This document shows, piece by piece, positions 523 to 21,657 of a DNA stretch of 64,000 nucleotides. A program made the position numbers and the translations under genes. Below the pieces are notes generated by a model. The model searched no databases, was not told the origin of the DNA, and worked only from the letters and a program-made list of their open reading frames with translations. The DNA is taken from NCBI GenBank assembly GCA_009869945.1, contig WIXG01000003.1, positions 496,001-560,000 on the forward strand, in the 5' to 3' direction. Every line of letters starts with the position of its first letter. Positions within the stretch are counted from its first letter, which is position 1. Origin of the DNA: Mesaphorura yosii. Taxonomy: Eukaryota; Arthropoda; Collembola; Poduromorpha; Tullbergiidae.

Positions 523-2884
523 TTAATGCAGGCTGAGGCGAAAGTCAAAAGTTTCGCTCACCTCTGAGTCAGAGACCCGATCGCTGCTCTTCAGGAGCCA
601 GTTGGTGGGGCACCATAGATACAGCTGGCAAATTGTGGCTGCTATTTCAGCACTCAGTCTTTCGTTCGGATTCCTTCTCAAAAGCTCATGAATCAATGTC
701 TGAACTCTGTTTGGAATATCCACGTATTTTGGCAATTCACTGTCCTTGTACGTTCTGCTGTCAAGCGCTGCGGCTGACTGGCTAGACTCGCGGACGAACG
801 GATTCGGCTTCCCAAACATTTCGTACGCCAACGTTCCAGCAGCCCAGGCATCGGACTTTTCGTACGAAATCTTTTTCCATGTCCCGGGTTTTGCCGAAGC
901 TACTTCAGGCGCCATGAGTGCAGCATTTCCTCCTCGGTCAGTTTCATTGCTAGGAAATGGGAGTTGGAGCCCATTTGTTTTGTCTGCGAGACAGCAACCA
1001 AAGTCAGTGATTGTCAGATGCGGATAATCAAGGTCGGTTGTTGTGTCCAAGAGCAAATTGTCCATCTTCAGGTCCCTGCAGGAAGCGAATATCCCATTGA
1101 ATTGGAGTTCAGCGAAACAAAGACCTTCGAATTATTGGAGCTAGCGCTAACCTGTGAGCGATTCCGTTGCGGTTTAAATGTGCGATTCCTTCCAGGAGTT
1201 GTGTCAGTAACAAAATTCGATTCTTCAGCTTTAAATCAGGATGAGTGCGAATATAATTTTCGAGGTTTGTATCATAGCTGAAAAACGGCAATTCAATTCA
1301 AATTCAGAGTTCAAGCCCAACTAAACTACAATGACGGATTTTTCAACGAGAGTAGGATAACTTACCACTTCATCACGAGGAACAAACTCATATTTCGCCC
1401 ATACCCGTCTTCATTTAACCTTCTGGGAAGTGCAGCTGGAAACAGTTCCATTGACTCAGGTAGCATAGGGATTTGATCCGTAAACACGTGAGACACTTCA
1501 ATAATATTGGGATGTGGCGGACAGAATTGCAAATTGGTCAAATCATCAATCTGAATTCCTCTTAACGCAGGAATCGATCGTGATGGCACAATCTCTTTGC
1601 ACATTGCCCGAATAATCGATGTTGAGTTTGACTCGAAATCGTAATTAAACATCATCTTGACAGCGAGTGGATATTTCTGTGGAGCGGTCGTTGAACTGGA
1701 TGCTTCTGGTTCGTGCTTCCAATTTGCAGCGTAAACCGCAGCACAAGATCCTTTCGAAAGCACTGGCCCAAAGTTTAGATCATTGACTGAAACGGCCGAT
1801 TCTTCCTCCATCGGGACTGGTTCCATAGTTGTCTGTGGAATCACAGGCTTCTTCTTTTGCAATGACTCCTGCAAAACATATGAACATGTCTGTTCGTTGG
1901 CAAATTGTTCAACACGTATCCTCGAAACCGCCGTGACACAATTAATTACGAACCCTGATTTCCCAGCATATTCCTTCGAATTCATTCTCCTTTGTGAGCA
2001 TCCCAGTCCCGGACGCTAAAGACACCCCGACAAGGGCGAAGAAAGGCCTCGCATCGTTATCGTAAAGAAGTCGCTCTGATGCTTTTTTTCGGAGTTCTCC
2101 GGAAAGTGCGCTGGTTACCCGTCTCAGAACGTTGTCCACAAATAGTTTTCTAGAAATAAAAAACAAAGACAATAGATTCATATTGGGTAAGTACGACGTT
2201 AAGAATATCATGTAAACAAAACAAAATATAAACTACGACAAAGATTTTATGTATATTTTGTCCATCATTGACTGCTGAAACTTTTTGAGTTAGTGAAACC
2301 TTGTATTTCGTGTCAAGACCAGCTTCTCTTCTAGCCTCTAGCCTGCTCCAAATCAGAAGCATTTGACTTGAAACAGAAATTCTCAAGGGACAAATACCTT
2401 CTAACAGTATTTCTCTTGCGCGACAAATCTTCCTCATATTCGACTTAAGGCTGATGTCGTAATATGTGGGTGCCTGACCATGACATTGTTCACACTACAC
2501 TAATGGATTCTGATGCACTGCTGTCGTAATCTGAATTTGCAAATCTAAATGTGGAAATGTGTTGGCATTCTTCACTGACCTGACTCCTGACTGTAGTTCT
2601 TGGCCAAGCCATTGCAAGGGGCTCGCTGCAGTTCCAAACCCGAAAAGCTTGGAGGAAGTGGTTGGAGTTGCACCTCCAGTAGTTAGTACATGTGGTTCAA
2701 TTTTTGCCAGATCAGGACGATACCTCTTCCCATAGAATTCCAGATGATAGCGTATGAGTGCACGACTATGCCAAATAATTCTACGAAGAAAAGACATCTC
2801 CAAGTAATTGTGTTGAAATGTGGTCAGCAGTGGTTGAATCCCGTGTTGTTTTGCAGTGGTTGCATAGAACAAGAGTCTATTCAT
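523..2884 (-). CDS. PINK1: PINK1 mitochondrial Ser/Thr kinase, 5 exons
   Basis: Exons on the minus strand: 2884-2580, 2149-1954, 1868-1366, 1277-1152, 1075-523. The lengths keep frame and give 560 residues (human PINK1 is 581). The N-terminus is basic and serine/threonine-rich, like a mitochondrial presequence. Residues ~138-151 form the hydrophobic segment [14 protein letters not shown] seen in PINK1. The kinase domain has a glycine loop ([10 protein letters not shown], ~204-212), catalytic Lys238 (LAVKMM), HRDLK 376-380 and DFG 401-403, followed by GCCLAD, and then MAPEV. In the family, PINK1 phosphorylates ubiquitin and Parkin on damaged mitochondria. The intron at 1953-1869 has a weak donor (gttcgt) but an excellent acceptor, and the frame requires it. 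A later ATG at 2797 would give 531 residues. Identity is certain; the exact start is less so. Confidence 0.93.
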
Positions 2885-4003
2885 TGCTTGAAGGATTCCA
2901 CTGTGTAATTAACTAGGCTGTCTCAGAAATTATGGATTACTCGCAGGTTTATTGATGGTTCCAGGTCCAAGTTTCGTTTTCTTCCATCTGAAACGTGTAC
3001 ACAATAAAGCAGAACAGAGTTAACAATCCAGCTCAAACAAAAGCGCAAAATTACATAGAATTAAATACTTGTCAGGTTATTCACGACACGAATCATTGAA
3101 CTTACTGATAAGCGAATCCAAATATTTCCCGTGCCCGTTTGGTATCAGCTTTGTTTTGACTGTGATTTCCTCTCACATTTTGGAGTGTGTACCAGTCAAG
3201 ATAAAAACAAATGTAAGCGCCGCCGTCATTCTCTCCCGTGCGGCTCTTTGTATATGTACATGTGAAAAATTACGTACTCAACTTGACGTAACGTTAATAA
3301 TAGCACTTGCAGTCCAGAGTTCGTGTCTTTCTAGAAGGTCTTTGCAAGAACTCCTTCACTATCACTTTCTTTTAGCGAGAAACTGAGAGGCATTCATTCA
3401 CGTCTCGCATTTCGTATTGCTTGCGTATCTCGTTTAGTTTCAGCAAAAGCAAAGATACGCGATGTGGTTTCGCTTTTACGGTTTCACAACTCTGCGACGA
3501 TGCAAAGACAGCAATTGATTTAATGAAGGTGGATCGCAACCATTTAAATTATTTATTAGTCCCTTAAATGCAAAATGTTGATGCTTAATTACAGCCATTA
3601 ACACGACACCGTGACTCCCATGTTAAATTAAGGTTTTACAACGTGCGTGCGCACTGAACAGTGTCTGTAGTTTAACAGTTTAATTAGCACAATGACTAGC
3701 ACCGTTACTGTAATATCAAGCTGCGTAATCTTAGCACATAGCAGGATTCGAGGGCTTCATAAAATGTGTCGTGTGTGTGAGATTAACGCTCTTAGAATTA
3801 GATTCCCGGACATTTGACATTCTGAAGAGGACACAAGGAAAGAAGACTGGAGACAAATTAATAACTTAGCACAAAAGGAGGTAATCTAAAGTTCAGTCGT
3901 AATGGTTTCAGTAAGGAAAGGAATTAATCAATGACTAGATATAAGGCAGAAAACTGAAACCAGACAAAGTTCAGAGATAGGAGGAAGGGTAACTGCAAAG
4001 GTA
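2885..4003. other. Interval between DNAJC16 and PINK1
   Basis: AT-rich sequence holding the presumed 3' UTR of DNAJC16 on its right and the PINK1 promoter on its left. An open frame at 3069-3386 starts at a non-ATG codon and resembles nothing. No RNA gene or repeat was recognised. Confidence 0.5.
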
Positions 4004-7000
4004 TTATTTCAAAGGAAATTCTGGCCAATCGCCACTGATGTGATAGCGATGTGTAGAACCTTCGAAGAGTCTATCTAGCCAATTTGACAAGTTGTCCAAG
4101 AGATTTGAGGTGAAGAGAATACTCGGCTGCTCGTGCTGAGCCTAAAAGGTCAGAAATAGTTTAATATCATTGACCTTGAACATTACGGAAACAGCTTCTT
4201 CATGTCTGTACCTCATTCCTTCGGCCTTCAACATCAGAATTGTCATCATCTGAACTTCGATCGGAGTCAAACCCTAAGAACCCTCCATTGTGATAGCCGC
4301 CGTGTCCACGATGTTTCTGTAATAATGCATAGCATCCCTCTAATTTAATCTCCTTTTACAACAATGGGGCTTTCAATTCAAAAAGAATGCACCTACCAAT
4401 TTTGCATTTGATGACGGAAGTGTGGCGTGGAACACACAAAAGTATCTGCGGAAGCCGTTCAATGACAAGACTGTCCCAACACAGTTTCTCGGATTTATAT
4501 TTAAACTTCTTGGTTCTGGCAGACTGAGAAGCAACAATTGCTTGTACCACTTCAGACCTCCGCCCTTGTCAACGTGCATGTAGCCAAATTGCAGAGATTT
4601 GTTCCTGCGTCCAAAAGCGAGTCAGTAATTTGTCCCTGAGACTTCACTTGGAATTGTCAAGGCTTACTTTCTGTATGGATAGACACATCTTTGAAATTTT
4701 GGTAACAGTGAAGCTTTTGTGTCAGCATCCAACAATAAAATGATAGTTCGGCAGCCTGGCTTTATCAAGCGAATAAGACCGTTGTACGATTCTCCTCGCA
4801 ACTCATGAACCTTCAAATCTGAAGTTGCATCATGATTTCTATGCCGTGGTGTTGTTGACTGGCCACTGCGGTCACTTCGGTGAGTTGTAGAAGTATGGGC
4901 ACTTCGGGACGATGTATTCATTCCCTTGGCCTTAGCTTGAATCGACTCCTCTTCAAGGCGACTATTTATAAAAACCATTGTTCCATTTCAGAGACTCGAG
5001 ATTGTATTGGCTTAATTAATAATGATAATAAAGATTATAATACTTACACAAGGTATGCCATAATATATCCGCCAGCAACAATAAAAAGAATGGTAGCGAT
5101 AAGTGAAGTGGTTTGGATGACCATTTCTCTTGTTAAATGTCCACGAATGAATTCCATTGTCAATGAAACTTTCTTCAGAACCTTTGACATTACTCCAGGC
5201 GCATGTTCATCGGCCAATTCCTAAGCACATCGCGAATATGGTTAAAGTTAAAAGGTACTGGCAGCATTTCAAAAGCGAATAGAAAATTTACTTGTACTTC
5301 CACTTGGTACGCCAATGGCTGCTTTTCGTTCAGCAGCGTATACAAAGTTGAGTCAAGTTTTCTAGCTGAGGCGTTGGTTCCATCCCAGTCCATCCACTGA
5401 AACGCAACTCGACTGGTACTTTGACGCCAAATAACAGCAAGATTCGAGAATTTGTTCCCGGCTGCAAAAAAATTGCAAACCACAGTCTCATTCAAGAAAG
5501 TGTTACTCGGGCAGCAGAATAGCCATACCATTGGCAAGCGAGTTGAAGAAGTCTTTCTGCTTCTCTTGATAAATGTATGCAAATTGAACCCTTTGTTGCG
5601 TATTTTGGCTGGCAAATTTCCGCAAACTGTCCTTATTCTCCGTCTCCCGTTCACTCGGTTTATCTTCCGTGAGCAAGACAACACAGAGACGACGCCTGTA
5701 TATTGAGCTCTCAGTTGGGCACAGCGTATCCATGATTGGCTAAAGAGAGAGAAGTTCTTTTCAAGTCATATCAGACATGTGGAGTGAAAAACAATGGAAA
5801 GGATCACGATACCTGAGAAGAGAGCCGTGGCAGATTAAGGAATTTGTTATTCTCGAGCAAATCCTTCATTAAATTGAAGGGAATATCGCTCATTGACAAA
5901 GAGGCCACAGGCTTAGGATTTTCTTTGAAAACCATTAACCCGTCCATTAACTTCTGAATTCCAAATCGTGATCGCAAGATGTAATCACTTGGATGAATGA
6001 ATCCAAATGCAGCTCTTTCACGATATTGGAATGCTAGCGTCATGTATCTAAGTCGCACGCTTGTTCCAGTGCCAAAAATTAAAGCACGCACACGATTGTC
6101 ATTTGAAGGCTTTAAGAATTCGTCGATGTTTGCATTGTCCACCAGTTGAATTACATCAGTAGGAATTTTGGATCGAATGAAGGCTGAAAAATAAGTACGA
6201 GGTGAGTGATTTTGAATGATTTATCAGGATTTTGACTTTCGTTTCATTCGTGTTACCGATAACTTTGCTTCCACTAATTACTGCATCTCGATAATGATGG
6301 GGTTGAGTTTCCATGAGCAAGATGACCAAGGGCACGACAGACACGCCGAATTTACGTGCAATGGATCGCTCTTTCTCGGCATGTATTGTCATCACATCGA
6401 TCTAATAGACAAACAAGAGAGATATTAATTAGCTAGAGACATGGCTTTAGCAACCAGGCGAAGTCAGAATAAAGTCTTACCCCAATGCTTTCTAATTCAT
6501 CAGTAAGCGTTCGCCACACAGGAACCGCCCTTCCACAACTTGGACACCAGTCCCCATAAAAAAGTAAAAGCTGTGGCACACTTTTAGATTTTGGTATTAC
6601 AGTTTGCTCCACCGTTCTACAAGCATTCGAGATAATATGGTCAAAATCCATCCAAATATTGAGAACTTGATAATGTTGCAAGGCTAACTTACTTGGTTGT
6701 GACAGATTGAGCTTGCAAATACGCACTGGCTTCACCAAATGAATGGTGAAATGATCCACCAGCAGTGAATGTCAAAATTTCGTCAAGCGGGTCAAACCGA
6801 TGAAATCCCGACTCAAAAGACGACGAGCGATGCGCTGGAAAGTCTTCTGCGACTCCATGTTGGTCGTACAATCTTCGACGATCCGGATCAGAAAGCAACT
6901 GAAGAAATGAAATGCTTGTAAGCTTCTAAATTAAAGCATGTCCTTACGCTAGAAATTTAGGAAATGTTTATTACCTCATGAGCTCGAGTAATTTGCATAA

Positions 7001-7304
7001 ATTTTGCCTGCGCGTCGGGATCCTGATTCTTGTCAGGATGCCACTCCTTCGCTAACTGCTTGTACGCTCTCCGAATTTGTTGTACATCGGCGGACCTGGG
7101 CACTCCCAAAATCTTGTAAGGATCCTCTGAAGCTGCTCCAAAGACGTACGGTTCATGAACGAGAAAAATTAACCCAATTATTACGACAGCTATTCGTGAG
7201 GCGGAAGTATGGGCCCGGTATCTTGGTACAGATTTGCTTGAAGACATTCCTGAACTCATTCCAGCAGCCAGCCACAGTCCAAACCCAATTTGGCCAGGAA
7301 TCAC
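4004..7304 (-). CDS. DNAJC16: DNAJC16, ER J-domain/thioredoxin protein, 12 exons
   Basis: Exons: 7304-6975, 6898-6693, 6616-6481, 6401-6257, 6183-5813, 5739-5529, 5461-5292, 5220-5048, 4961-4668, 4604-4397, 4316-4212, 4141-4004. All joins keep frame and give 828 residues (human 782). A hydrophobic signal anchor lies at ~36-50. The J domain starts near residue 60, with HPD at 89-91 (EWHPDKN). A thioredoxin-like domain follows with W-CPSC at 202-206, where human has WCFSC. A membrane segment is at ~558-580. Segments such as CVVLLT, the LSLNGFRRYFCVF stretch and the C-terminal GDWPEF match the family end to end. Family members are ER-membrane J proteins that recruit Hsp70 and have been linked to autophagosome size. 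A start at Met16 is also possible. Exon 6 ends at gtatgg (5528); an alternative donor 22 bases downstream would break the frame. Confidence 0.93.
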
Positions 7305-8989
7305 AATAGATAAATGAATATTTGAGCTGAAACTTGTACCATGTTGTAGTATGGCCCACTGAACTGATGCTGATCGTTGATCCGATGTTAGATCACTGTT
7401 GACATTTTCTTAATTAAAGTTATGCTTCAGCGTCGAGACTTTTAACTGCTGAGCGCGTGCAATTCTAGCTATGAACACAGACTACATGGAACACTCCCTA
7501 AATTAATAGCAATGAAATTCTGGAGTCCTTTTTTGTATTTTCATGCTAATTGACATTTTGTTTCGAGTTGCAGTTGCAATTAAATTACGTAACAGCCCAA
7601 AATGCAACTTTAATTCGGGCTTCTACATTTAATTAAAAATCGATAACATTTCAAATGGCGAGAGAACAAGGATGTGCACCTGCAATGCAGTATAGCGAGT
7701 CAAGCGAGCTTTCGCTTATAAACAAAGAGCAATTTCATTGTATCATCAAGTTGCAATTTCGTTCAACTTTATTACAGTATAATTGATAATTGATATATTC
7801 TAATTCCTCGTTATTTAATTTTGTCATCGTCTTCTATCTTCTGTTGTTCTAATCTTCTAGCCCACCATGCACCATGACTGACGCATCATTCGTGCTAGAT
7901 TCTAGATTAGAATATAGGGGAATTAGGGCATTTTAAAACTTAAAATGTGGCATCTCTGCAGCATGACTGATTATATTAATGTCAAATTGTCAATTGACCA
8001 TCAGACACCTTCGACTTCAACTCCTTTGATCCGACTCCACCTTTGATCGACTTAGACTCTGATCAGATGCCCAGCTCCTCTCGTAAGTCAACATTTCTCT
8101 GCAACGAAAATATGGGATGGGAGTTGGAATCTCTAATAAGCATTTTCTCGATCTGGACACGTTTGAGCCTCCGTAATTGCCAAATTGCTACAAACTCCAT
8201 GAAAGCAGGCACAGGATGGGACAGGTACATAATTCTTTAGCCGACATTTCCTCACATTCACTGTGGTTAACGTCAATTTTTTGCGTTTATCGTTTATCCA
8301 TTTCTTTATACTTTATCTCTCAGATTTCACTTCAGGTAGCAAAATACATTCTTTCCATCAAGTTAATTGGAGTCAAGTTGAAGTTGGACAGTTGCCGTAG
8401 CACGAACTAATCCAGCTACAACAGTCCTCCTAAGACTGAATCCCCCAAGTCCCCTGTTGAGACAACGTAAGGGTCAGTGGCTAATGATGATATCATGAAC
8501 TCGACTTTGAAGGTTCGAGTCCCGGGCCCGTGACATGAAAACCTGAAGCCATTTTTTTGCACAATTTTATTTATGTGTACTCCGCCAAAGGGGACTCGGC
8601 CACAGGGGGACTGGATCGGGGGGACTGCTATAGGGGGATTCGTTCATGGAATCGACAGTTGCAACTTCATAGGGGCATTTGTATATCTTCCTGGTGATCC
8701 TGGGGCTGGGACGCGACAACTGAAATCGTAGTCGTAGTGTTAGGTAGGTAGTGAACAGAAAAGCGACTGATTCCAACTGCACAGGACTCCATCCCGATTG
8801 CTTTTCCAGTGAATAGAATTTGATGAAGCACCACAAGTTCGAGTTCATGAAATATGAAATACGAACTGATGGCGTAACTTTGCTGAATGTTCGGAGCGCA
8901 TGCGTACGTTGTTCGTCTCACGATTTCTGCATGTCTTGCTTGCATGAATAATTACAAAGGCATTCTGAATCAATTAAATTTAGTCTAAA
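7305..8989. other. Divergent intergenic region DNAJC16 / homeobox
   Basis: This is the shared upstream region of two genes reading outward. It contains a lone tRNA-like B-box word near 8510-8523 and G-run-rich sequence at 8580-8640. Open frames on both strands are short and unlike proteins. No coding exon could be supported. Confidence 0.5.
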
Positions 8990-11066
8990 ATGTCTTGCTC
9001 TCCGGGTCGGACCGGCGGCGGTGGCAGTGGATACTGTTATTCAATTAACGGATTGCTTCGCGAGACAAATTCGCACAGAGACGATGAGCCAACCGACGAT
9101 CAACTGTTTGGAGGTGTGGCAGCAGTAGTAGGAAACCACAAGGCGTCTGCCGATGTGTTTCAGTCGTCCTCCTCGTCAACTGACGAACCATTTTTCGATC
9201 CCGAAACTCAACGACTTGGCGCTGGTAAGTATTAACCCAAGGAATAGACCTTCTAAATCAAATTGTCAAATGGAATTGAGTAACTTAATCAACTTCAAAT
9301 CAAGGATTACATTGGCAAAACGACAAATGGCTTGATTTCATTTAATCCAATTGCATAAAGGAGTTAGGCAAATTAAGCTCACTGCTGAATAGACAAGATA
9401 GTTTCCAGTCTACCTCAACCATCTCGTTAATCCATTTTGTTTCAGTGCTGAATTGCGACTTGTGACGAAAATTCAGTTTTGAGTGGACACGTTGAGACAG
9501 CAGACAGCCTGTGTCGCTTGCCCGTTAATCTTAAGTATTTGCATTAAATAAACTTTGCCGGAGAAGTGAATGCATTAAATAAACGTTCTGGAGAGTCAAG
9601 TGCATAATCTCCGAGCCCTTTACCTGCTCCCTAAATGAATGAACCCGAACGATCAGCCTACAAATCCATTCAGACGTCGCTCTTTACTCGCTTTCCTCAA
9701 AGCCATGAAACTGTAAATTCCTGAGAAGAGAATGAAAGCCCACGCGTTTCGTCTCAAAACTTTTAATTAAAGTCCATGTGTGTATGCTGTGCGGGCATTC
9801 GGGCACGGTGCTAAAGAGTACCTTCGAGTTCACCTTCACCTGCATTCCTTGTAGGATCGTCAGGAGGGAGCAGCAGGAAACATGGGTCCCAGTCCGTCAC
9901 GTTCACCCCAATTCTTCTGAACCATTTTCATCATCACCGAAACAGCAGCCCAGGTGCTACATCAGTTTCTGGCAGAAGAAAGCAGAGAAGGTACAGGTAA
10001 GGAATCGTTCATTCCAAGAATCAGGTATCTAATTAAAAGTTACCTGGCATGGCTTCCCCATTCTACTTTTGCTTTTCATGTTTAATTAATATTCTTTCAG
10101 AACAACCTTCACCAGTTATCAGCTTGAAGAACTGGAACGGTCTTTTCTACGAACGCATTATCCTGACGTATTTTTCCGGGAAGAGTTGGCTTTGAGAATT
10201 GATTTGACGGAGGCTAGAGTACAAGTATGGTTTCAGAACAGGAGGGCAAAGTGGAGAAAACAAGAGAAACAAAATAGTGCAGGCGGCAGTGGCGGTGGGG
10301 GAATTAAATTATTCGGTAAGCTAAAAGTTCGCTAAAAGAACGCTGCAACAGCAACAATAGCACGTGCTTCATACAATTTTCTTCGTTCTCGGAATTCGCA
10401 GACAGTCCACCAAGTCACCAACTACTGCAATCTGGCAGTGTATATGGAATCTCGGCGTCTCCATCATCGCCTGCGTCGCCCTCTCAAGGCCCAGTGTCAG
10501 GATCCGCAGCTGCAGGGGCCAACGCCAGCAGCTCAAGCACGCCATCTTCAAATTCCCCAACCAACGGAATTCTTGGAAGAGAAAGCGTCTTTGGACAATC
10601 TTACCATCATCATCATAGTTACGGCAGCCACAGTTCGCCATCAGCATTCGTCCCAATGCCCATGTCAAACACGGGTGTGAATATTTCTGCGTTACATCAG
10701 CCAGCTTCAAGTCTCCTGCATCCACAGCCACAGCGACAAGCCCATTCTCACTCGGCAGAAATGGCGATGTCAGGAGCGGGACACCCATACTTGGGCTTTG
10801 ATTGGCAGTCGTCTTTTTTGTCACAAGCCTCTCTTTTCTCTGATATTACATTTCCGAAGGAGCTGGTCCAAAGTTCGGTTCCACAGCATCTGGGCCTGAG
10901 CAATAGCGGTAGCGGCTTGGAGTTTGGGAATATGAGTGGACATGGAATTAGTCTTGGAAGTGGTGGGGAATCTTCTGGAGGCGGACGTGATCGTTTTGTC
11001 GATGGTGGAACAGGTCTCCGGGCGACCGATTTGTTGCCTGATGATTTGTCACAATGCTTACGTTGA
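8990..11066 (+). CDS. Pph13: Paired-like homeodomain factor, Pph13/aristaless group, 4 exons
   Basis: Exons 8990-9224, 9855-9996, 10101-10315 and 10402-11066 join in frame to 418 residues. The homeodomain is at ~122-181: it has [16 protein letters not shown], then [11 protein letters not shown], and a recognition helix [15 protein letters not shown]. Gln at position 50 puts it in the paired-like, non-paired-box class. From memory, [20 protein letters not shown] fits Pph13 (a photoreceptor regulator in flies) better than aristaless or Arx, but this needs a tree. An octapeptide-like YSINGLL is at 17-23. The C-terminal half is Ser/Gly/His-rich with [14 protein letters not shown] as its only ordered-looking stretch. 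I see no OAR motif. An AATAAA follows the stop. Homeodomain identity is certain; the ortholog name is moderately sure. Confidence 0.9.
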
Positions 11067-11130: not shown

Positions 11131-11136
11131 AATAAA
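11131..11136 (+). promoter_or_regulatory. Poly(A) signal AATAAA of the homeobox gene
   Basis: Canonical hexamer 64 bases after the stop codon, on the coding strand. Confidence 0.5.
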
Positions 11137-11759
11137 AGGAACTGAAATCTATAGACTCGAAAAGGTCGGTCGTAGAGTACAAAGCGAATGTTGTCAAATG
11201 TATAATTTATTCTCATTCCACTAATGAACTGACATGTAAAGCACTATTGTTAGCCATAAACATAAATATGCTCAAATAATTTCGCAGCGCAGCAGCTGTG
11301 ACCTGGGTGAGTAATCGTGATCAGTAATCACAAATACTTCCATTTTCTATTGCATTGCTGAAAGTTTCCTCTCTTCTTTTTCACAATTTCTGCAGCATCG
11401 GTAACGGTAACGCAAAATGATCCACAATTAGCAATTACAGTTATTGAATCAGGGCGAGCGGAAATTCGCTGGTATACCCATGATGATTCTTTTATGTTGA
11501 CATGATTATTTCCTTCTTCGTACATTTTTCTCAGCCTGCCCCAAATTCGCGCGATTCACGCGATTTATGCATCAAAGCATATGAGATCCAATTCTAAAAA
11601 TAGAAATCAGACGAAACGATTCATTACTGCACCTGCAGTGCGAATGTGAATCTGTATCGCAATTGACGTGCTATTATTCTAGCTACACGCAAGACCCATT
11701 TCGAAAGTGAAACTCACCATTGTTGCGCCGACCACGAGAAAGTTACAGCACAGCTACAG
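11137..11759. other. Interval without recognised gene
   Basis: Lies between the homeobox poly(A) signal and the first short hydrophobic ORF. It probably includes that gene's 3' UTR. Nothing else was recognised. Confidence 0.4.
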
Positions 11760-11894
11760 TTACGTCTTCATGAGGAACCGCACAATCGTGATGGGCGTCT
11801 GTAGGATTACAAAGCAAGGGAAGAGCGCCACGCAGGCCGCAGCGACCAGGATTTTGGCTGCCTGCTGCACGGTGCGAGTTGCGAGAGTCAGCAT
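11760..11894 (-). CDS. 44-residue hydrophobic micropeptide (copy A)
   Basis: A complete ATG-to-TAA frame of 45 codons. The N-terminus is polar and short (MLTLATRTVQQ). It is followed by one hydrophobic stretch of about 20 residues containing ACVALFPCFVIL, then a C-terminus TPITIVRFLMKT. A possible splice acceptor (atttttag) lies 5 bases before the ATG, so a 5' UTR intron is likely. Copy B, 2.5 kb away on the same strand, aligns over the last 35 residues with 23 identities. Across the last 25 codons (stop included), 9 are identical, 10 differ silently and 6 change the residue, mostly conservatively. That pattern is what selection on protein gives. I do not recognise the family. A single-pass membrane micropeptide is an inference from hydrophobicity alone. 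Confidence 0.62.
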   Translation of the reverse strand: MLTLATRTVQQAAKILVAAACVALFPCFVILQTPITIVRFLMKT

Positions 11895-14304
11895 TTTACT
11901 AAAAATTTAATGCGAACTGAAAATATTGTATTGCAAAAATTCTGAATATGAATGCCGAATGCGCTTTGCGGCACGATTTGCAACGAAACTTTCTGTTAGT
12001 TTTTGTACGTCTTGTTTCCAAATTGCGACTGATACTCTACTACGCCTCTTCCTGGTCAATTTAAATAAAATCTCACGGCTTTGCCCCGCATCGTATGGCA
12101 CATGCAAGAAGTATCCATTCTATTCTATTGTATTTAGATTCTTGCACTGTACATGACTCCAATGGCAAATCTACAGAAGCATGTGCTCAAGTGGCTTAGC
12201 GCACTGAAATATGGGTTAGTAGTGGCAGTAACAGTAATACGCTGATACGTTAATACGCAGTTATAAAGTTGTGGATAACAAGTCATTTACTGCAGCACGC
12301 GGCAGGCTCAACACCAACATTTGTGTCTCACTACGCGCGGCTCGTGGCCGTGGCTCTCATACGGGAGAATAATACGAGAGAAATTGCGTCGCGTCTGGCG
12401 TCTGGGTTTTACTACGTGCACCGCACAAGGCCACACACTACGCCACTCGAGCTCTGATTGGCTGCTATCGAAGGCGTGTGTGGGTAATCAACATATTTCA
12501 TTCACATTTACGTAATGTTATGTTTAATTAACTGGCTACATAGTACGCAACGAAACCGGCCAGTCTCACATGACTCTCAAGCGGCAGCATTAGCATTGGC
12601 GTTGGCTGCATAATCGGCTTAATCATAACTACGCAGTTTAATTTAGTTTAGTCTACAGACAAACCAAACCACAATTAGCCTGACTTTAACTTAGCTAGCT
12701 TCGAGTTCAAATGCACTCTGGATGTTTTTTTCTGCGACTGGCCTGGCCTGTGATCTACCAATTCACGGCATAATTTAAAGCGACAGCCTCCAGCAACGGC
12801 ATTGTTCCATATCCAAAATGGGCATTCACTCGTTTCGTTTATGCTCTTCAGTTTGTTCAATTTCCATTTGCCTGCCTTGCGTATTTCTATTTCGACAAGT
12901 GGGAGTGGAACGCGACGGGACGGGACGGGACTTGTTTTGGTTTTCGCATTCCAAACTCGTTACATAATGCACAACGCGACGAGAATGCCAGGCGACGATT
13001 CGGCCAATAGCTGCGTTGTTATTGTCGATTTCTCTGAAAACAGAGAACTACGCACTTGTGTTTGTGTTGAGGCTCGTCTGCATCTCGGTTCTCAGGAAAC
13101 TGCATCATACCCGTCGTATCGAAGGACCTTGAACTAGTTTTGACTATGAATGGTATTGCGCACACTATTTTTAGTTCCAGGCGAGTCAACAAAGCATCTA
13201 CTGCTTCTGCTGCTCCTGCTCCTGAACGCGGGCTCTGTGCTGCACTGTGCTGAAACCGCAATAAATTGTCTTGAGGATGAAAGAAGATGAACTCTAAACA
13301 TAATGGACAATCACTGTACTCAATGCACACATTTTCCATTTGCCATTTAGGTGAATGTGAAAAGTGTGAATCGGATGATCAAACACATGTAGAAAGAACG
13401 GTCAAGGACGGCTCGTCGGGCAAGGCACTTGTTACTGGCTTAAGAATGCAGACGAGATCGAAGCTATAGCTTTAATTAAATCTGTGTCATTTTATTAGTC
13501 GCATTTGCATTTGCTATGCAAGACTTGCATCTGTATTATAAATTAACATATCAGATTATTTACAAGAATATGGCAAATATCCATTTATGGACTATACAAA
13601 CACAAACGGCTATGACTGTGACTGATGCAGTCAAGTAAAGTAAAGAGATTAAAGAGTACCCCCTTCATAATTCACAAACGAGTTAGATAATTAGCAAACG
13701 GTAAGGCGGAAAAGTAAAAGTAACTTATCGGCTGCGCTGCGCATCGGGTTCATTAAACAAATCACAAACAAGACTATAAATTAATACAAAAATGAAAAAA
13801 TTCCTTTCACGCGTCAGGCGATGATGAATCTCGTGCCCAATTCAATGTACGGTTTTGCAGAACGACAAAGGCACTTGAGTCTTGAGCCCAATTTCCCCAA
13901 TATCCAATTAATCATGTTCTTGCTCTTATCAGTTCCGAGTAGCATAAAGCTATCAGTTAAAACTCAATCACGCATCCCGCTGGCAGTAAATGGCTTTCGG
14001 TGGCTTCTTTCATTCCTTCTGTGGTTGGTGTTCCGCTGATTCATGACTCCTTTGCACTGCAGCAGCCTGAAATCCGAGAACAGGGTTCATTGATTCACCG
14101 CTTAAGAATGAGAATGAGCACACTTCCTGAACTTAATTTTAGAAAATGACAACGACAAAATTCTGATCCTACGCCTACTCAGTTTGCGTTAAGAGCAGGG
14201 CATCGGCATCTTTGATGCAGCATGCAAATGAAGCTATTCATAGAAATTATGACTCAATTCATCCGATTCACCTACCTTTCGTATGTTGGAACCTTTCTCA
14301 GTTC
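11895..14304. other. Interval between the two micropeptide genes
   Basis: AT-rich, no exon recognised. It should contain the upstream region of copy A and the 3' end of copy B. Several open frames of 60-110 codons (for example 12802-13137 plus, 13821-14039 plus) have no repeats, motifs or splice support. Confidence 0.4.
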
Positions 14305-14505
14305 TTATGTCTTGAGAATAAATCTGACTAGATTAATCGGCGTGGACAGGATCACAAAGCAGGGGAAAAGCACCACGCACGCGACGCCCGTCAGGATGTG
14401 AACACATTGCTGAGAGAAGGAGCTCTGGGCAGTGGCGGGCACGAGCGCCAGTGTCCTGGCCCTGGTTTTTGAAGGTGATGGCGACGAGGGAGCCAGTTTG
14501 GTCAT
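14305..14505 (-). CDS. 66-residue hydrophobic micropeptide (copy B)
   Basis: A frame of 67 codons from ATG at 14505. The first ~30 residues are polar and rich in Ser/Pro/Thr. The last 35 align to copy A: both share QQ, then IL, then C-V-x-LFPCFVIL-x-TPI-x-x-VRF-x-x-KT and a TAA stop. A strong acceptor-like sequence (ccttctctcag) sits just before the aligned part. The polar N-terminal part may therefore be intron, with the true 5' exon elsewhere; the shared block would begin exactly at that acceptor. No signal peptide cleavage site is evident. Function unknown; the C-terminal coding block is well supported by codon conservation against copy A, the start is not. Confidence 0.55.
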   Translation of the reverse strand: MTKLAPSSPSPSKTRARTLALVPATAQSSFSQQCVHILTGVACVVLFPCFVILSTPINLVRFILKT

Positions 14506-15911
14506 TTCGTTCTCTCTTCGTTCCTGGCTGAACTGAAGGCGACTCACGAACGGCACGACACGAGGAACGATGACGATGAACTCTTAACTCTTCGATCAAC
14601 TGATCCCAGATGATTGATTGACACTGTTTGCTTTAACGTTGCTGTAAACAATCTCCTGCTGAGAAGATCAAGTTGGTGCTGTGCTAATTTAGCCCACGCA
14701 GGACCAAAATGGCAAGCACGATTCACGCACACGTGTGAGGTCAATGAGTTCAGTTGTTGAGTATCTTCGACTTCGATATTCTGTAATTGGCTGATAACAG
14801 CTTCATAGCACAGCGCAGCGGGTTTCTGATTTGGGATAACTTCCCTGGAACGTAAACGTTGGAACGAAGTGCAGACTTGCTTTCGGTTGCTTTGTCGTTT
14901 CTCGAATGAACTCAAAGTATGTCAGCCAGTCGTTGCGGTGGCGCAGTGGAGTCGGAGGTTTTTGTGCAAGTGCATGGAATTCTACCGTTGTTGTTTGTGT
15001 TCGAGTACATTCGAAGCGAGAGTTCAATATGTGTTTACAACTTCAACTTGCCTTGGCTGCCTGGCTCTGGCTCTGTGACTCGCTGTCCGCTGGCTGTCCT
15101 GCGTTTAGAGGTGGTACAAAAACAACTCACAGCTGTTTCATGCAAGTGATTCGCTTTTTGCTAACTTGCGTGACTAGTAAAAAAAAACTGAACGTATGTA
15201 CACACGGCAAAAAGCGGAATGCGAATGGCATACGGAAAATTTTGGAGATGCAATGAGCAGAGATGAGGCGGCACGGAAGCAGCAAACAGTAAACAGCTCT
15301 AAAGCCCTTGGGGTTTGCTTATTCTTTGAGGAAAATTCCACGAATCAGTAGAACTAGAACAAGTGATTCGATTTTCAATGATAATGCAATTATGCAATAA
15401 AAGGGTACTAAATCAGCCACAAAGAAAGATTCTGGACAGTCTTTATTTTGCATTCCAGCACTGGGTTTGTTATGCAACTGAATTCCTGCAAAAATGCATA
15501 GAAAAATGGAATGCCCATACGCGAAGTGAAGAGAAGTAAGTGTCCAACCCAAGATTCATTCATCTCGGTCAGCCTGTGAGCGTAATTGTAAGGTCGTCAA
15601 CTTTCGTTATCTGTCTTCTTACACGTCAAAAATGCTTGTGATCTTTGCTGCGCGTGGTTGAATAATGTGCCTTAAAATACTTGTTTGTCTTTACCATGAT
15701 TTGCCAACTTCCTGCATCTGCATTCTTCAGCTGCAGCCACAACCGCACGTGCACGTTTCTTTTTATTTCCTCGTCTTGTCTTCGCTAATGAATCGAAGGA
15801 AAGAATGAATCATGATTCTTAAATAAATTGTGTATGAAAGTATGAACTTTGCTATTTTCTTTTGACGATTGGACTTCAAATACCAAGATGAATACGAATT
15901 CTGTTACGTTT
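14506..15911. other. Interval without recognised gene
   Basis: Upstream region of copy B and downstream region of the GMC oxidoreductase. Overlapping frames near 14544-15256 on both strands show no family resemblance and conflict with each other. Confidence 0.4.
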
Positions 15912-19142: not shown

Positions 19143-20756
19143 CTAGACGGCGGAATCTTCGCTCAGCATCCGAATTTCTGCATTAATGTTATTAATAAGT
19201 TCTTGCGCTTTGGGCTGCCCTGACAGGAGGCTGTGGTCCACTCCAATATTCATGGTCAACATTCCATTGTTGCTCATCATCGCCACTCCCATGCCTGAAA
19301 GCGAAGATAACCATGTTAAAGCAGAGCCGCGCACACTGACACGTTTCTTCTTATTGTTCGTCTTACCCAAGTTTCCTGGTCCCAGCCCACCGCCGAAATT
19401 CGACTCTAGAATCGGATAACCCAAAAAGTCCACGTTTGCAGGCGGGCCCGGGAAGTTGCTCAGGATCATCGTCGCGTTACTGCAGTTGACATGGCCCAAA
19501 AGTCTCATCCAGCCAACCGTCATGCTCCCAAGCAGTGGGACGAGATAAAAATTCATTGTTGGCAGAGTTGACCGTTTGATCTGCTCCCAGTTTGCGTGAG
19601 TGAACCGCAGCCTTTCCTCCGCACTCTTCAACCCCGTCGGCAGAGTTACGATCGCGCATGTCCAGTAGTTAATGAGTCTGTTCAGCGGGTGGTTAGGCCA
19701 CGGAAGCGGCATAACGACGTAAATGTGCTTCGGGACCTTCAACTCGTTGTCTTTCAAGAACTTGCGGAGCCCGCCAGCGAGCCCGGCCAGAATCACCGAC
19801 GTAAACGTGACATTATGAGCGCGGCGAATTGCTCCGATTGCGGCTATGGACACTCGCGTGCTTGCTGGGTAAACTTGGCGGGTGAGATCGCTCGAGCGTG
19901 CTGCCTGCAGTGGATTCCGGCCACTCGTGTACTCAATCACCAGCTGCCTGGAGAGATGGTACGGAGTGCTGAAGATGGTTTGGAGGTAATGCAGGTATTT
20001 AAGGCAGATATTCAGCCGCGGGTAGTTGGGCGTGGGTATGGACTCCTCCATGGCCCTCTTTCCCCGCTCTGTTATCACAGCAACCTCCATAAAGGCCTGC
20101 AGTATGGTGTATCCGTCGGCCATTCCGTGATGGGCGCGCGAGATAATTACAGATTTTGCCACCTCTGGAGACGGATCATTCGTGGGTTTGTAATTCCTGA
20201 CGATGATGAATTCCCACGGACTCTGACCACGCACGTAAGGCTTACGCACGAGCTGCAGCCGGAGTTTGGCGATGTCCACTTCGTTCATCACCCGAGTCTC
20301 CGACTCCGCATGGATATTAACGTGGTTTGTGATGTCGAATTTGTCCACCCACCTCCAGAATATGAACCCGAGCCACTGATGGTAGTGCTGCTGAAGTTCG
20401 GGGTACTGAAGTTTGCCCTTATTCTGCTTCTGTATGAGAGTCGTTAGAGCCGTGTGCCGGAATCTTTCCAGATCTTCCCGGTCCAAGTCTCCTTGCAATG
20501 TGTTCACGACGAGTAGGGTGAGTGTTGGGCGCACGTACAAGTCGTCGGTGGCGCAAATTGCACTTCGAGGATGCACGAATCCGGCCAAATCCCACCGGAA
20601 TAACTTCGCAGCACATAAAACGAGAAGGCGGTAAATATAAACTGGAATTAGCAAGAGAATAAAAAATAAAATCAGTAAGATTGCGATAAGAACTGTAAAC
20701 AGTGAAATAAGAAGTTGCCGGAAGGCGGATTTGCAGAATTTGCAGGCTTTCTTCAT
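19143..20756 (-). CDS. WS/DGAT-type O-acyltransferase, membrane anchored
   Basis: Unbroken frame of 537 codons, but 19366-19295 is almost certainly a 72-base intron (ttgg|gtaag donor, ctttcag acceptor). Removing it leaves 513 residues and joins GPGNLG to MGVAMMSN. The N-terminus is a long hydrophobic anchor (~14-49). The acyl-CoA-dependent catalytic motif HHxxxDG is present as HHGMADG at 209-215. The C-terminal half has LSNFPGPP, the counterpart of the NxPGP motif of the family's second domain. Family members make wax esters or triacylglycerol from fatty alcohols or diacylglycerol. Specificity is not readable. In an arthropod a role in cuticular or storage lipid is a reasonable guess only. 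Confidence 0.88.
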   Translation of the reverse strand: MKKACKFCKSAFRQLLISLFTVLIAILLILFFILLLIPVYIYRLLVLCAAKLFRWDLAGFVHPRSAICATDDLYVRPTLTLLVVNTLQGDLDREDLERFRHTALTTLIQKQNKGKLQYPELQQHYHQWLGFIFWRWVDKFDITNHVNIHAESETRVMNEVDIAKLRLQLVRKPYVRGQSPWEFIIVRNYKPTNDPSPEVAKSVIISRAHHGMADGYTILQAFMEVAVITERGKRAMEESIPTPNYPRLNICLKYLHYLQTIFSTPYHLSRQLVIEYTSGRNPLQAARSSDLTRQVYPASTRVSIAAIGAIRRAHNVTFTSVILAGLAGGLRKFLKDNELKVPKHIYVVMPLPWPNHPLNRLINYWTCAIVTLPTGLKSAEERLRFTHANWEQIKRSTLPTMNFYLVPLLGSMTVGWMRLLGHVNCSNATMILSNFPGPPANVDFLGYPILESNFGGGLGPGNLGKTNNKKKRVSVRGSALTWLSSLSGMGVAMMSNNGMLTMNIGVDHSLLSGQPKAQELINNINAEIRMLSEDSAV

Positions 20757-21657
20757 GGCTCTAGGCGAGTCTGGACGAAGAGAGGCCTCCGGGCCAAATA
20801 AAACCAGTGCCGATTCCGACTAGGCTAAATTCTTTGCTTCCGCGTCAGTAATTCGCAATTGCAATTAGACGAGACCCAGACCTAGAAACCTATTTGGCAA
20901 CGCGAATATACATACGTTAGGGTGAACGGTGGAGTTAAGCATGAGAACTGTATGTAGCTCACTTTGGCTCTCAATTATTGACCAATTTTAATTCCCACGA
21001 ACAGTCGTAAATAAGTTCCCATCGGTCTTCTGGCTTCTGGATGCCCGTCTGTTGGTGTCTGTGCTGAGTGATCATTGAGGATAAGCGTGATGAAAATTAT
21101 GCTAGCCAACGTCACACGTCAGCGTCAATATCAATGTCATGCCATGATACATGTCAGTGACAACACAAGATCGGGCTAACTTCTAGATGCGGAAGCTGGA
21201 AGTGGGAAGCCTCGTGCATGCTCGTACATTATTGAGAATTTGAATGAAATCATCACAGACCGAACCACGTCGCCGTCACGCGACCTGGAGGCTTGTATCT
21301 GGCTGAAAGAATCGTCCGAGATCAATCCGTTTCGCTGAGTCATGCTTGTCATGCAGCAGAGTGGCACAGTGGAAGGCTTTTTGGTTAATGTCTTAATGGA
21401 AATAGTGGAATGGATCGAAAGGATCGAGCAATGCTGCAATAAGCAATGGCTAAATCGCTTAATTAACCATAAACCCCAAACCGCAAAAGCAAAATCCTGT
21501 GTCAACAGCAGATAGGCATATGAAATCGAAATGTGCGACGTAATTGCAAGCAGCACAGCGAATAAACGAAATACCGAACCTGTTCCAGTCCCAGTTACAA
21601 GTTCAAATATTCAAAATTGACACTGTTAGCTAGCTGGCCAGTGCGTGTTAGTTGAAA
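20757..21657. other. Divergent interval WS-DGAT / secreted peptide
   Basis: Shared upstream region of two genes reading outward. A minus-strand frame at 21176-21556 has no family resemblance. No TATA box stood out. Confidence 0.4.

Follow-up and report, generated by a model that had tools for sequence, protein, structure and literature searches.

Two Tandem Small Open Reading Frames under Coding Selection in a Collembolan Genome, Candidate Genes of Membrane Microproteins

Two short frames, here called A and B, lie on the minus strand of a 64-kb stretch of the Mesaphorura yosii genome (the window) and share a C-terminal block whose substitution pattern is that of a protein-coding sequence. The similarity of A and B is far above chance, and their strand and frame are well supported. 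It is likewise well supported by the pattern of substitutions that A and B are protein-coding and that selection acts on the peptide sequence. The best reading of the pair, as judged from the sequence, is that A and B would be small open reading frame (smORF) membrane microproteins, that is, members of a class that is already known and is not a homology family; the searches made here led to no family.

Results

Two Paralogous Frames with a Common C-Terminal Block

The initial annotation had pointed to two short minus-strand frames 2.4 kb apart, and both were recovered as complete ATG-to-TAA frames on that strand, about 2.4 kb from one another (Table 1). At 44 and 66 amino acids, each with a start and a stop, they fall within the size of smORFs (fewer than 100 codons). 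The alignment of the C-terminal 35 residues is gap-free, and a recount returned the same 23 identities that had been reported for this common end. Among the 2,161 ORFs of the window with 20 residues or more, the A-B pair had a BLOSUM62 score of 125, and no other ORF exceeded 42. The similarity at the DNA level ends at the common TAA, the following 100 nt agreeing at 19 of 100 positions in an ungapped comparison.

The differences between the two copies are concentrated where they leave the peptide unchanged. Over the last 25 codons we counted 11 silent codon changes, 6 residue changes, and 8 unchanged codons, so that the 6 residue changes first described stand and the 10 silent changes have to be corrected to 11. 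The 24 base differences in this segment are distributed over codon positions 1, 2, and 3 as 5, 3, and 16. A count of silent against non-silent sites had been proposed beforehand as a check; by the method of Nei and Gojobori, differences fall on 15.5 of 19.3 silent sites and on 8.5 of 55.7 that are non-silent, which on counts rounded for the Fisher test gives P = 2.4e-7; the silent sites are near saturation. Nineteen of the 25 residues are kept, a number that was not reached once when neutral change with 24 differences was simulated 20,000 times (mean 11.0 identical residues, maximum 17), and a stop was acquired in about one third of the simulations. For the frame and strand of A and B, the substitution pattern and the neutral simulation thus bear out the earlier proposal of selection on protein. 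This coding signature comes from one paralogue pair in one genome and bears on neither the age of the duplication nor present expression.

Table 1: Frames A and B, candidate transcript signals, and neighbouring genes in the window.
Feature	Position	Strand	Description
Frame A	11760..11894	-	ATG to TAA, 44-aa peptide; paralogue of B across the last 35 residues
Conserved block of A	11760..11867	-	35 codons and stop; QQ...ACVALFPCFVILQTPITIVRFLMKT
Frame B	14305..14505	-	ATG to TAA, 66-aa peptide; last 35 residues form the conserved hydrophobic block
Conserved block of B	14305..14412	-	35 codons and stop; QQ...ACVVLFPCFVILSTPINLVRFILKT
Donor-like site ATG|GTGAGT	11712..11720	-	Candidate exon end 11718, 42 nt past the stop of A; equal-or-better sites 0.09 per kb
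Donor-like site AAG|GTAGGT	14270..14278	-	Candidate exon end 14276, 29 nt past the stop of B; equal-or-better sites 0.11 per kb
Acceptor-like tract ending TTTTCAG	11917..11936	-	22 nt before the ATG of A; score 4.36, 1.38 such sites per kb
Acceptor-like site	11594..11613	-	Downstream of the donor-like site of A; score 4.56, 1.21 per kb; a terminal 3' UTR exon may begin here
AATAAA poly(A) signal	11206..11211	-	Possible transcript end; convergent with the homeobox gene on the plus strand, whose 3' end it faces
TCAGTT, initiator-like	14531..14536	-	25 nt between site and ATG of B
TCAGTT, initiator-like	11915..11920	-	20 nt between site and ATG of A
Homeobox gene	Homeodomain 10090-10335	+	Downstream of A; last exon ends at 11066 by eye; AATAAA (+) at 11131
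GMC oxidoreductase	ends 15938	-	Upstream of B
PINK1 exon	523-1131	-	Best structure matches are PINK1 (5oat, 8udc and others)

Properties of the Predicted Peptides

Both peptides are basic and contain no acidic residue, with a net charge of +4 for A and +6 for B. Each has a single hydrophobic stretch, located near a six-residue basic tail of the form RF[IL][LM]KT. The best 19-residue hydropathy mean is 2.48 in A and 2.52 in B, and of the 1,064 ORFs of 35 aa or more in the window, 28 reach a mean of 2.3. The conserved helix motif, ACVxLFPCFVILxTPI, includes two cysteines and two prolines. The invariant positions, among them C43, P48, C49, T55, P56, R61, and K65 of B, are concentrated in the helix and the tail.

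A single helix was predicted by AlphaFold for residues 28-65 of B, with a block-mean pLDDT of 75-86 from residue 31 and of about 50 before it. The model is of modest confidence (mean pLDDT 67.1, pTM 0.35; the input alignment consisted of two sequences), and for residues 1-31, which are basic, the structure was predicted with low confidence. Hydropathy and the predicted helix are in agreement with the hydrophobic conserved C-terminus described initially. A transmembrane helix, suggested as a further check, is indicated by the hydropathy values together with this AlphaFold helix of modest confidence. In both A and B the predicted helix lies near the C-terminus, a position that would be compatible with a tail-anchored membrane protein.

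Candidate Splice Sites and Transcript Architecture

Donor-like sites are present close behind both stop codons (Table 1); neither these sites nor the possible dicistronic arrangement discussed below had been described in the initial annotation. The donor matrix was made of insect frequencies, the best site was taken in the 60 bases after each stop, and the rates of equal-or-better sites were counted over both strands of the window. From these rates the chance of such a donor at most about 45 nt away from any one stop is roughly 0.005 for each frame, an estimate for sites that were noticed before they were scored. Each smORF would then sit in an exon that ends 29-42 nt past its stop codon. Nonsense-mediated decay spares an mRNA whose junction follows the stop by no more than about 50 nt. 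The donor-like sites of A and B lie within that distance, and an mRNA spliced there would escape this decay.

The acceptor-like tract before A has a score that falls within the range of four acceptors of neighbouring genes placed by eye (2.49-5.17), but with 1.38 such sites per kb it is not decisive alone. Initiator-like TCAGTT sites precede both frames, TCAGT[TC] being common, with 7 occurrences on the minus strand in 11700-15900. The site in front of A overlaps the acceptor-like site, and the initiator and acceptor readings of these bases are therefore mutually exclusive.

As a special case of the best explanation, we tentatively consider, with a limited chance of being right, that a single spliced mRNA carries B and A as two cistrons, in which case the peptides would be produced jointly and might work as a pair. 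The donor-like site 29 nt past the stop of B and the acceptor-like site 22 nt before the ATG of A fit this arrangement in strand and order, joining the exon of B to that of A at 11917 would leave 51 nt between the stop of B and the ATG of A, and an AATAAA follows behind A at 11211. There is precedent in Drosophila, where smORF paralogues such as Sloth1/Sloth2, pri/tal, and Sarcolamban are multicistronic, as stated in the excerpt of PMC9681215. Several observations speak against a common mRNA, however. The acceptor-like site at 11917 is equalled in quality at a rate of 1.38 sites per kb, and the interval from B to A holds four with better scores (14127, 13774, 13531, and 12052). A separate transcript of B could end at any of the AATAAA/ATTAAA signals at 13496, 13476, 12642, and 12528, a further signal of the AATAAA/ATTAAA type at 11911 falls within the supposed leader of A, and an alternative reading of the bases at 11917 is the initiator of a separate promoter of A.

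The position of a donor-like site right behind the stop in both exons, with ATG as the last codon of the exon of A, could also be accounted for if the two exons served one downstream gene as alternative leaders, with the peptides as conserved upstream ORFs whose translation regulates it. We find this unlikely, since no recognisable minus-strand coding exon was seen before the convergent homeobox gene and the single ORF put to the Pfam scan in that interval (11328-11525, 65 aa) gave sub-threshold matches only (E 0.063 and 0.18). Exons beyond the homeobox gene were inspected by eye, and a long intron could still lead to such exons if A and B were leaders.

Searches for Further Copies and Known Families

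The searches of the organism's own genome covered an assembly of 93 Mb in 1,127 contigs. With each peptide as query, A and B matched one another (E 5.0e-9 and 1.2e-9), and no third copy was found in the 93-Mb genome, where only the best candidates were scored and a much diverged copy could escape. The degenerate pattern LFPCF[VIM]xL, applied genome-wide, returned A, B, and one match on contig C213 whose frame drops the motif. A third copy suspected by eye at 15319-15453 was discarded, its scores of 20 and 34 being within the range of other window ORFs.

Neither A nor B had a match in Pfam at E values up to 10, in a scan that loses most hits with E above about 0.1 to its filters. When the frame of A was extended, it drew HTH_41 alone, below threshold (E 0.22). 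No PDB chain was matched by A or B with phmmer, which was also the check on TOM5 and Sec61-gamma as candidates; a two-row A/B profile returned ShuY-like and chuY chains at E 3.7 and 3.9, which we took as chance. In viral contigs 79 stretches fit a pattern, and 0 were confirmed. No Rfam match was obtained in the window at gathering thresholds, and a full-text literature search with four motif strings retrieved no paper containing any of them. The initial annotation knew of no family with this motif, and the Pfam, PDB, and literature searches agree with it.

A source of A and B within a known protein was considered in the WS/DGAT-type acyltransferases, one of which is encoded on the same strand at 19143-20819. 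Their N-terminal anchor resembles A and B in having a helix followed by P....R, with the difference that A and B are without the catalytic part. In favour of A and B being relics of this membrane segment, in ungapped comparisons with nine hand-chosen paralogues the locus L011 scored 49 with B and 42 with A, values attained by 0 of 2,000 and 2 of 2,000 shuffles. Two others, L009 and L010, gave shuffle P values of 0.025 to 0.039 for both peptides and L023 gave 0.035 for B; the remaining comparisons ranged from 0.08 to 0.84. A profile of 16 N-termini nevertheless put A in 22nd place and B in 76th among the 1,693 ORFs of the window, even without bias correction. This profile was derived from 30 loci, which gave 17 distinct stretches and then 16 on exclusion of L019 (an unrelated 35-residue frame), with L009 of the window included. 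The profile failed to lift A or B above other window ORFs, and we rejected the identity; purifying selection up to the common stop codon is moreover not expected of relics, and this origin is very unlikely.

The acyltransferase gene at 19143-20819 (minus strand, Pfam WS_DGAT_C) has in its own right many candidate paralogues (L009-L038) with similar N-terminal membrane segments. Genome searches with the WS/DGAT N-terminus gave 15 matches at E up to 10 and 16 at E up to 1, several of them weak and the query included. A further place resembling this N-terminus, with a TGA inside, was seen at C101:218567-218680.

Strand and Frame of the Conserved Sequence

Codon usage was coding-like over residues 1-31 of B (P = 0.008) and did not make the conserved blocks stand out (P = 0.08 for A, 0.23 for B). 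The codon-usage score was higher in antisense than in sense, at 1.43 vs -0.24 bits for A and 6.56 vs 2.53 bits for B. As the blocks are not singled out and the antisense scores are higher, codon usage lends the frame no support, whereas the substitution pattern does. When the other five frames were put to the neutrality test, a weak shadow of constraint (P = 0.025) was carried by the antisense frame that has its wobble positions in common with the sense frame, and the other four, with P 0.71 to 0.97, were without constraint.

That the conserved coding frame sits on the opposite strand is scarcely credible: the wobble-sharing antisense frame keeps 16 of 26 residues, is free of stops over those 26 codons in both copies, and has the higher codon-usage score, but it meets two stops across the whole length of B, and the sense frame retains 19 of 26, lies much further from neutrality (0 of 20,000 against P = 0.025), holds a CGG/AGA arginine pair, and terminates at the common TAA.

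Other Features of the Window and the Genome

The PINK1 structures 5oat and 8udc, to which the exon listed in Table 1 corresponds, are presumably insect proteins. A likely further PINK1 exon was seen by eye at 1362-2015 (minus strand), in the same 64-kb window as the smORF pair. A DnaJ domain is encoded at 6957-7409 (minus strand); by eye it is the start of a multi-exon gene that reaches about position 4000 and that we take to be DNAJC16-like.

TTAGG is the usual arthropod telomere repeat. It forms arrays in the genome, which together with the PINK1 matches make an arthropod source likely. Its 20-mer was found at 56 forward and 52 reverse places of the genome (overlaps counted), vs 0 and 1 for the reversed control. 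It occurs on many small contigs (e.g., C900, C936, and C866), at several places per contig, on both strands and not just at the contig ends. These scattered repeats are perhaps subtelomeric repeats or telomere-targeting elements.

Discussion

Pairs of this kind have been described in flies. Sloth1 and Sloth2 (SMIM4/C12orf73) of Drosophila are tandem smORF paralogues of 79 and 61 aa with 27% similarity, each has one predicted transmembrane domain, and each is essential in flies, according to the excerpt of PMC9681215. A and B, as far as that excerpt allows the comparison, are similar in being tandem smORF paralogues with one predicted membrane helix each. They are unlike Sloth1 and Sloth2 in that they terminate right after the helix and in that an arrangement on one mRNA is only a candidate for A and B. 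The frames are not Sloth1/SMIM4 itself (UPF0640, PF15114), since the Pfam scan gave no match and the genome has its own gene elsewhere: the SMIM4/Sloth1-like gene is at C150:12400-12540 (L007; PF15114, E 1.6e-22), with a weaker match on C80 below the cut-off.

The likeness to annotated smORF membrane microproteins of the fly is one at the level of the class. Membrane helices are frequent among fly smORF peptides of about 80 aa (TMHMM, 32%), and a distribution resembling mitochondria was seen for six that had been tagged, as given in the excerpt of PMC4359375. With fewer than 100 aa, a membrane helix, and coding-type conservation, A and B are like the proteins of this class as outlined in the excerpts of PMC4359375 and PMC11674832. 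A likeness to COX7C was noticed at the end of the helix, by eye only, where a P, four residues, and an R are followed by hydrophobic and basic residues. COX7C was rejected as an identity, since the Pfam scan of A and B gave no PF02935 match and the true gene of the genome is on contig C109 (PF02935, E 2.7e-9), with the C-terminal end ATPFFLLRHQLLKKK.

We infer transcription, splicing, location, function, and partner of A and B from the DNA. Our preferred reading, that of smORF membrane microproteins, can be made more specific: A and B are probably tandem-duplicated smORFs for basic single-pass membrane microproteins that serve as accessory subunits, perhaps in the mitochondrion. A tandem duplication would have given rise to the two frames. 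Each peptide would begin with a short soluble segment, of about 14 residues in A and 36 in B, followed by the conserved helix and the six-residue basic tail. Since selection is mainly on helix and tail, we propose that the peptide most likely acts through helix-helix packing with a partner in the membrane, which would make it a small accessory subunit in a membrane complex. For the location, the mitochondrion is our first guess and the endoplasmic reticulum our second. The mitochondrial guess follows from charge and hydropathy, both peptides being basic and without acidic residues, with a short basic tail after the helix.

A further-reaching version would have one dicistronic mRNA give two paralogous microproteins that pair through the C-x-x-x-x-P-C helix and are subunits of a mitochondrial complex. 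A and B would then represent an unrecognised arthropod family and an independent second case beside Sloth1/Sloth2, which we regard as doubtful.

Conclusions

Short membrane proteins are easily overlooked by annotation, and A and B may already appear in other annotations as genes of uncharacterised proteins, the sequence searched here being one arthropod genome. In the A/B pair the signature of codon-level selection is visible from a single genome. If expressed, A and B would supply a defined motif for an arthropod-wide search, and they would make it simple to test if smORF paralogues in tandem tend toward one mRNA and one complex.
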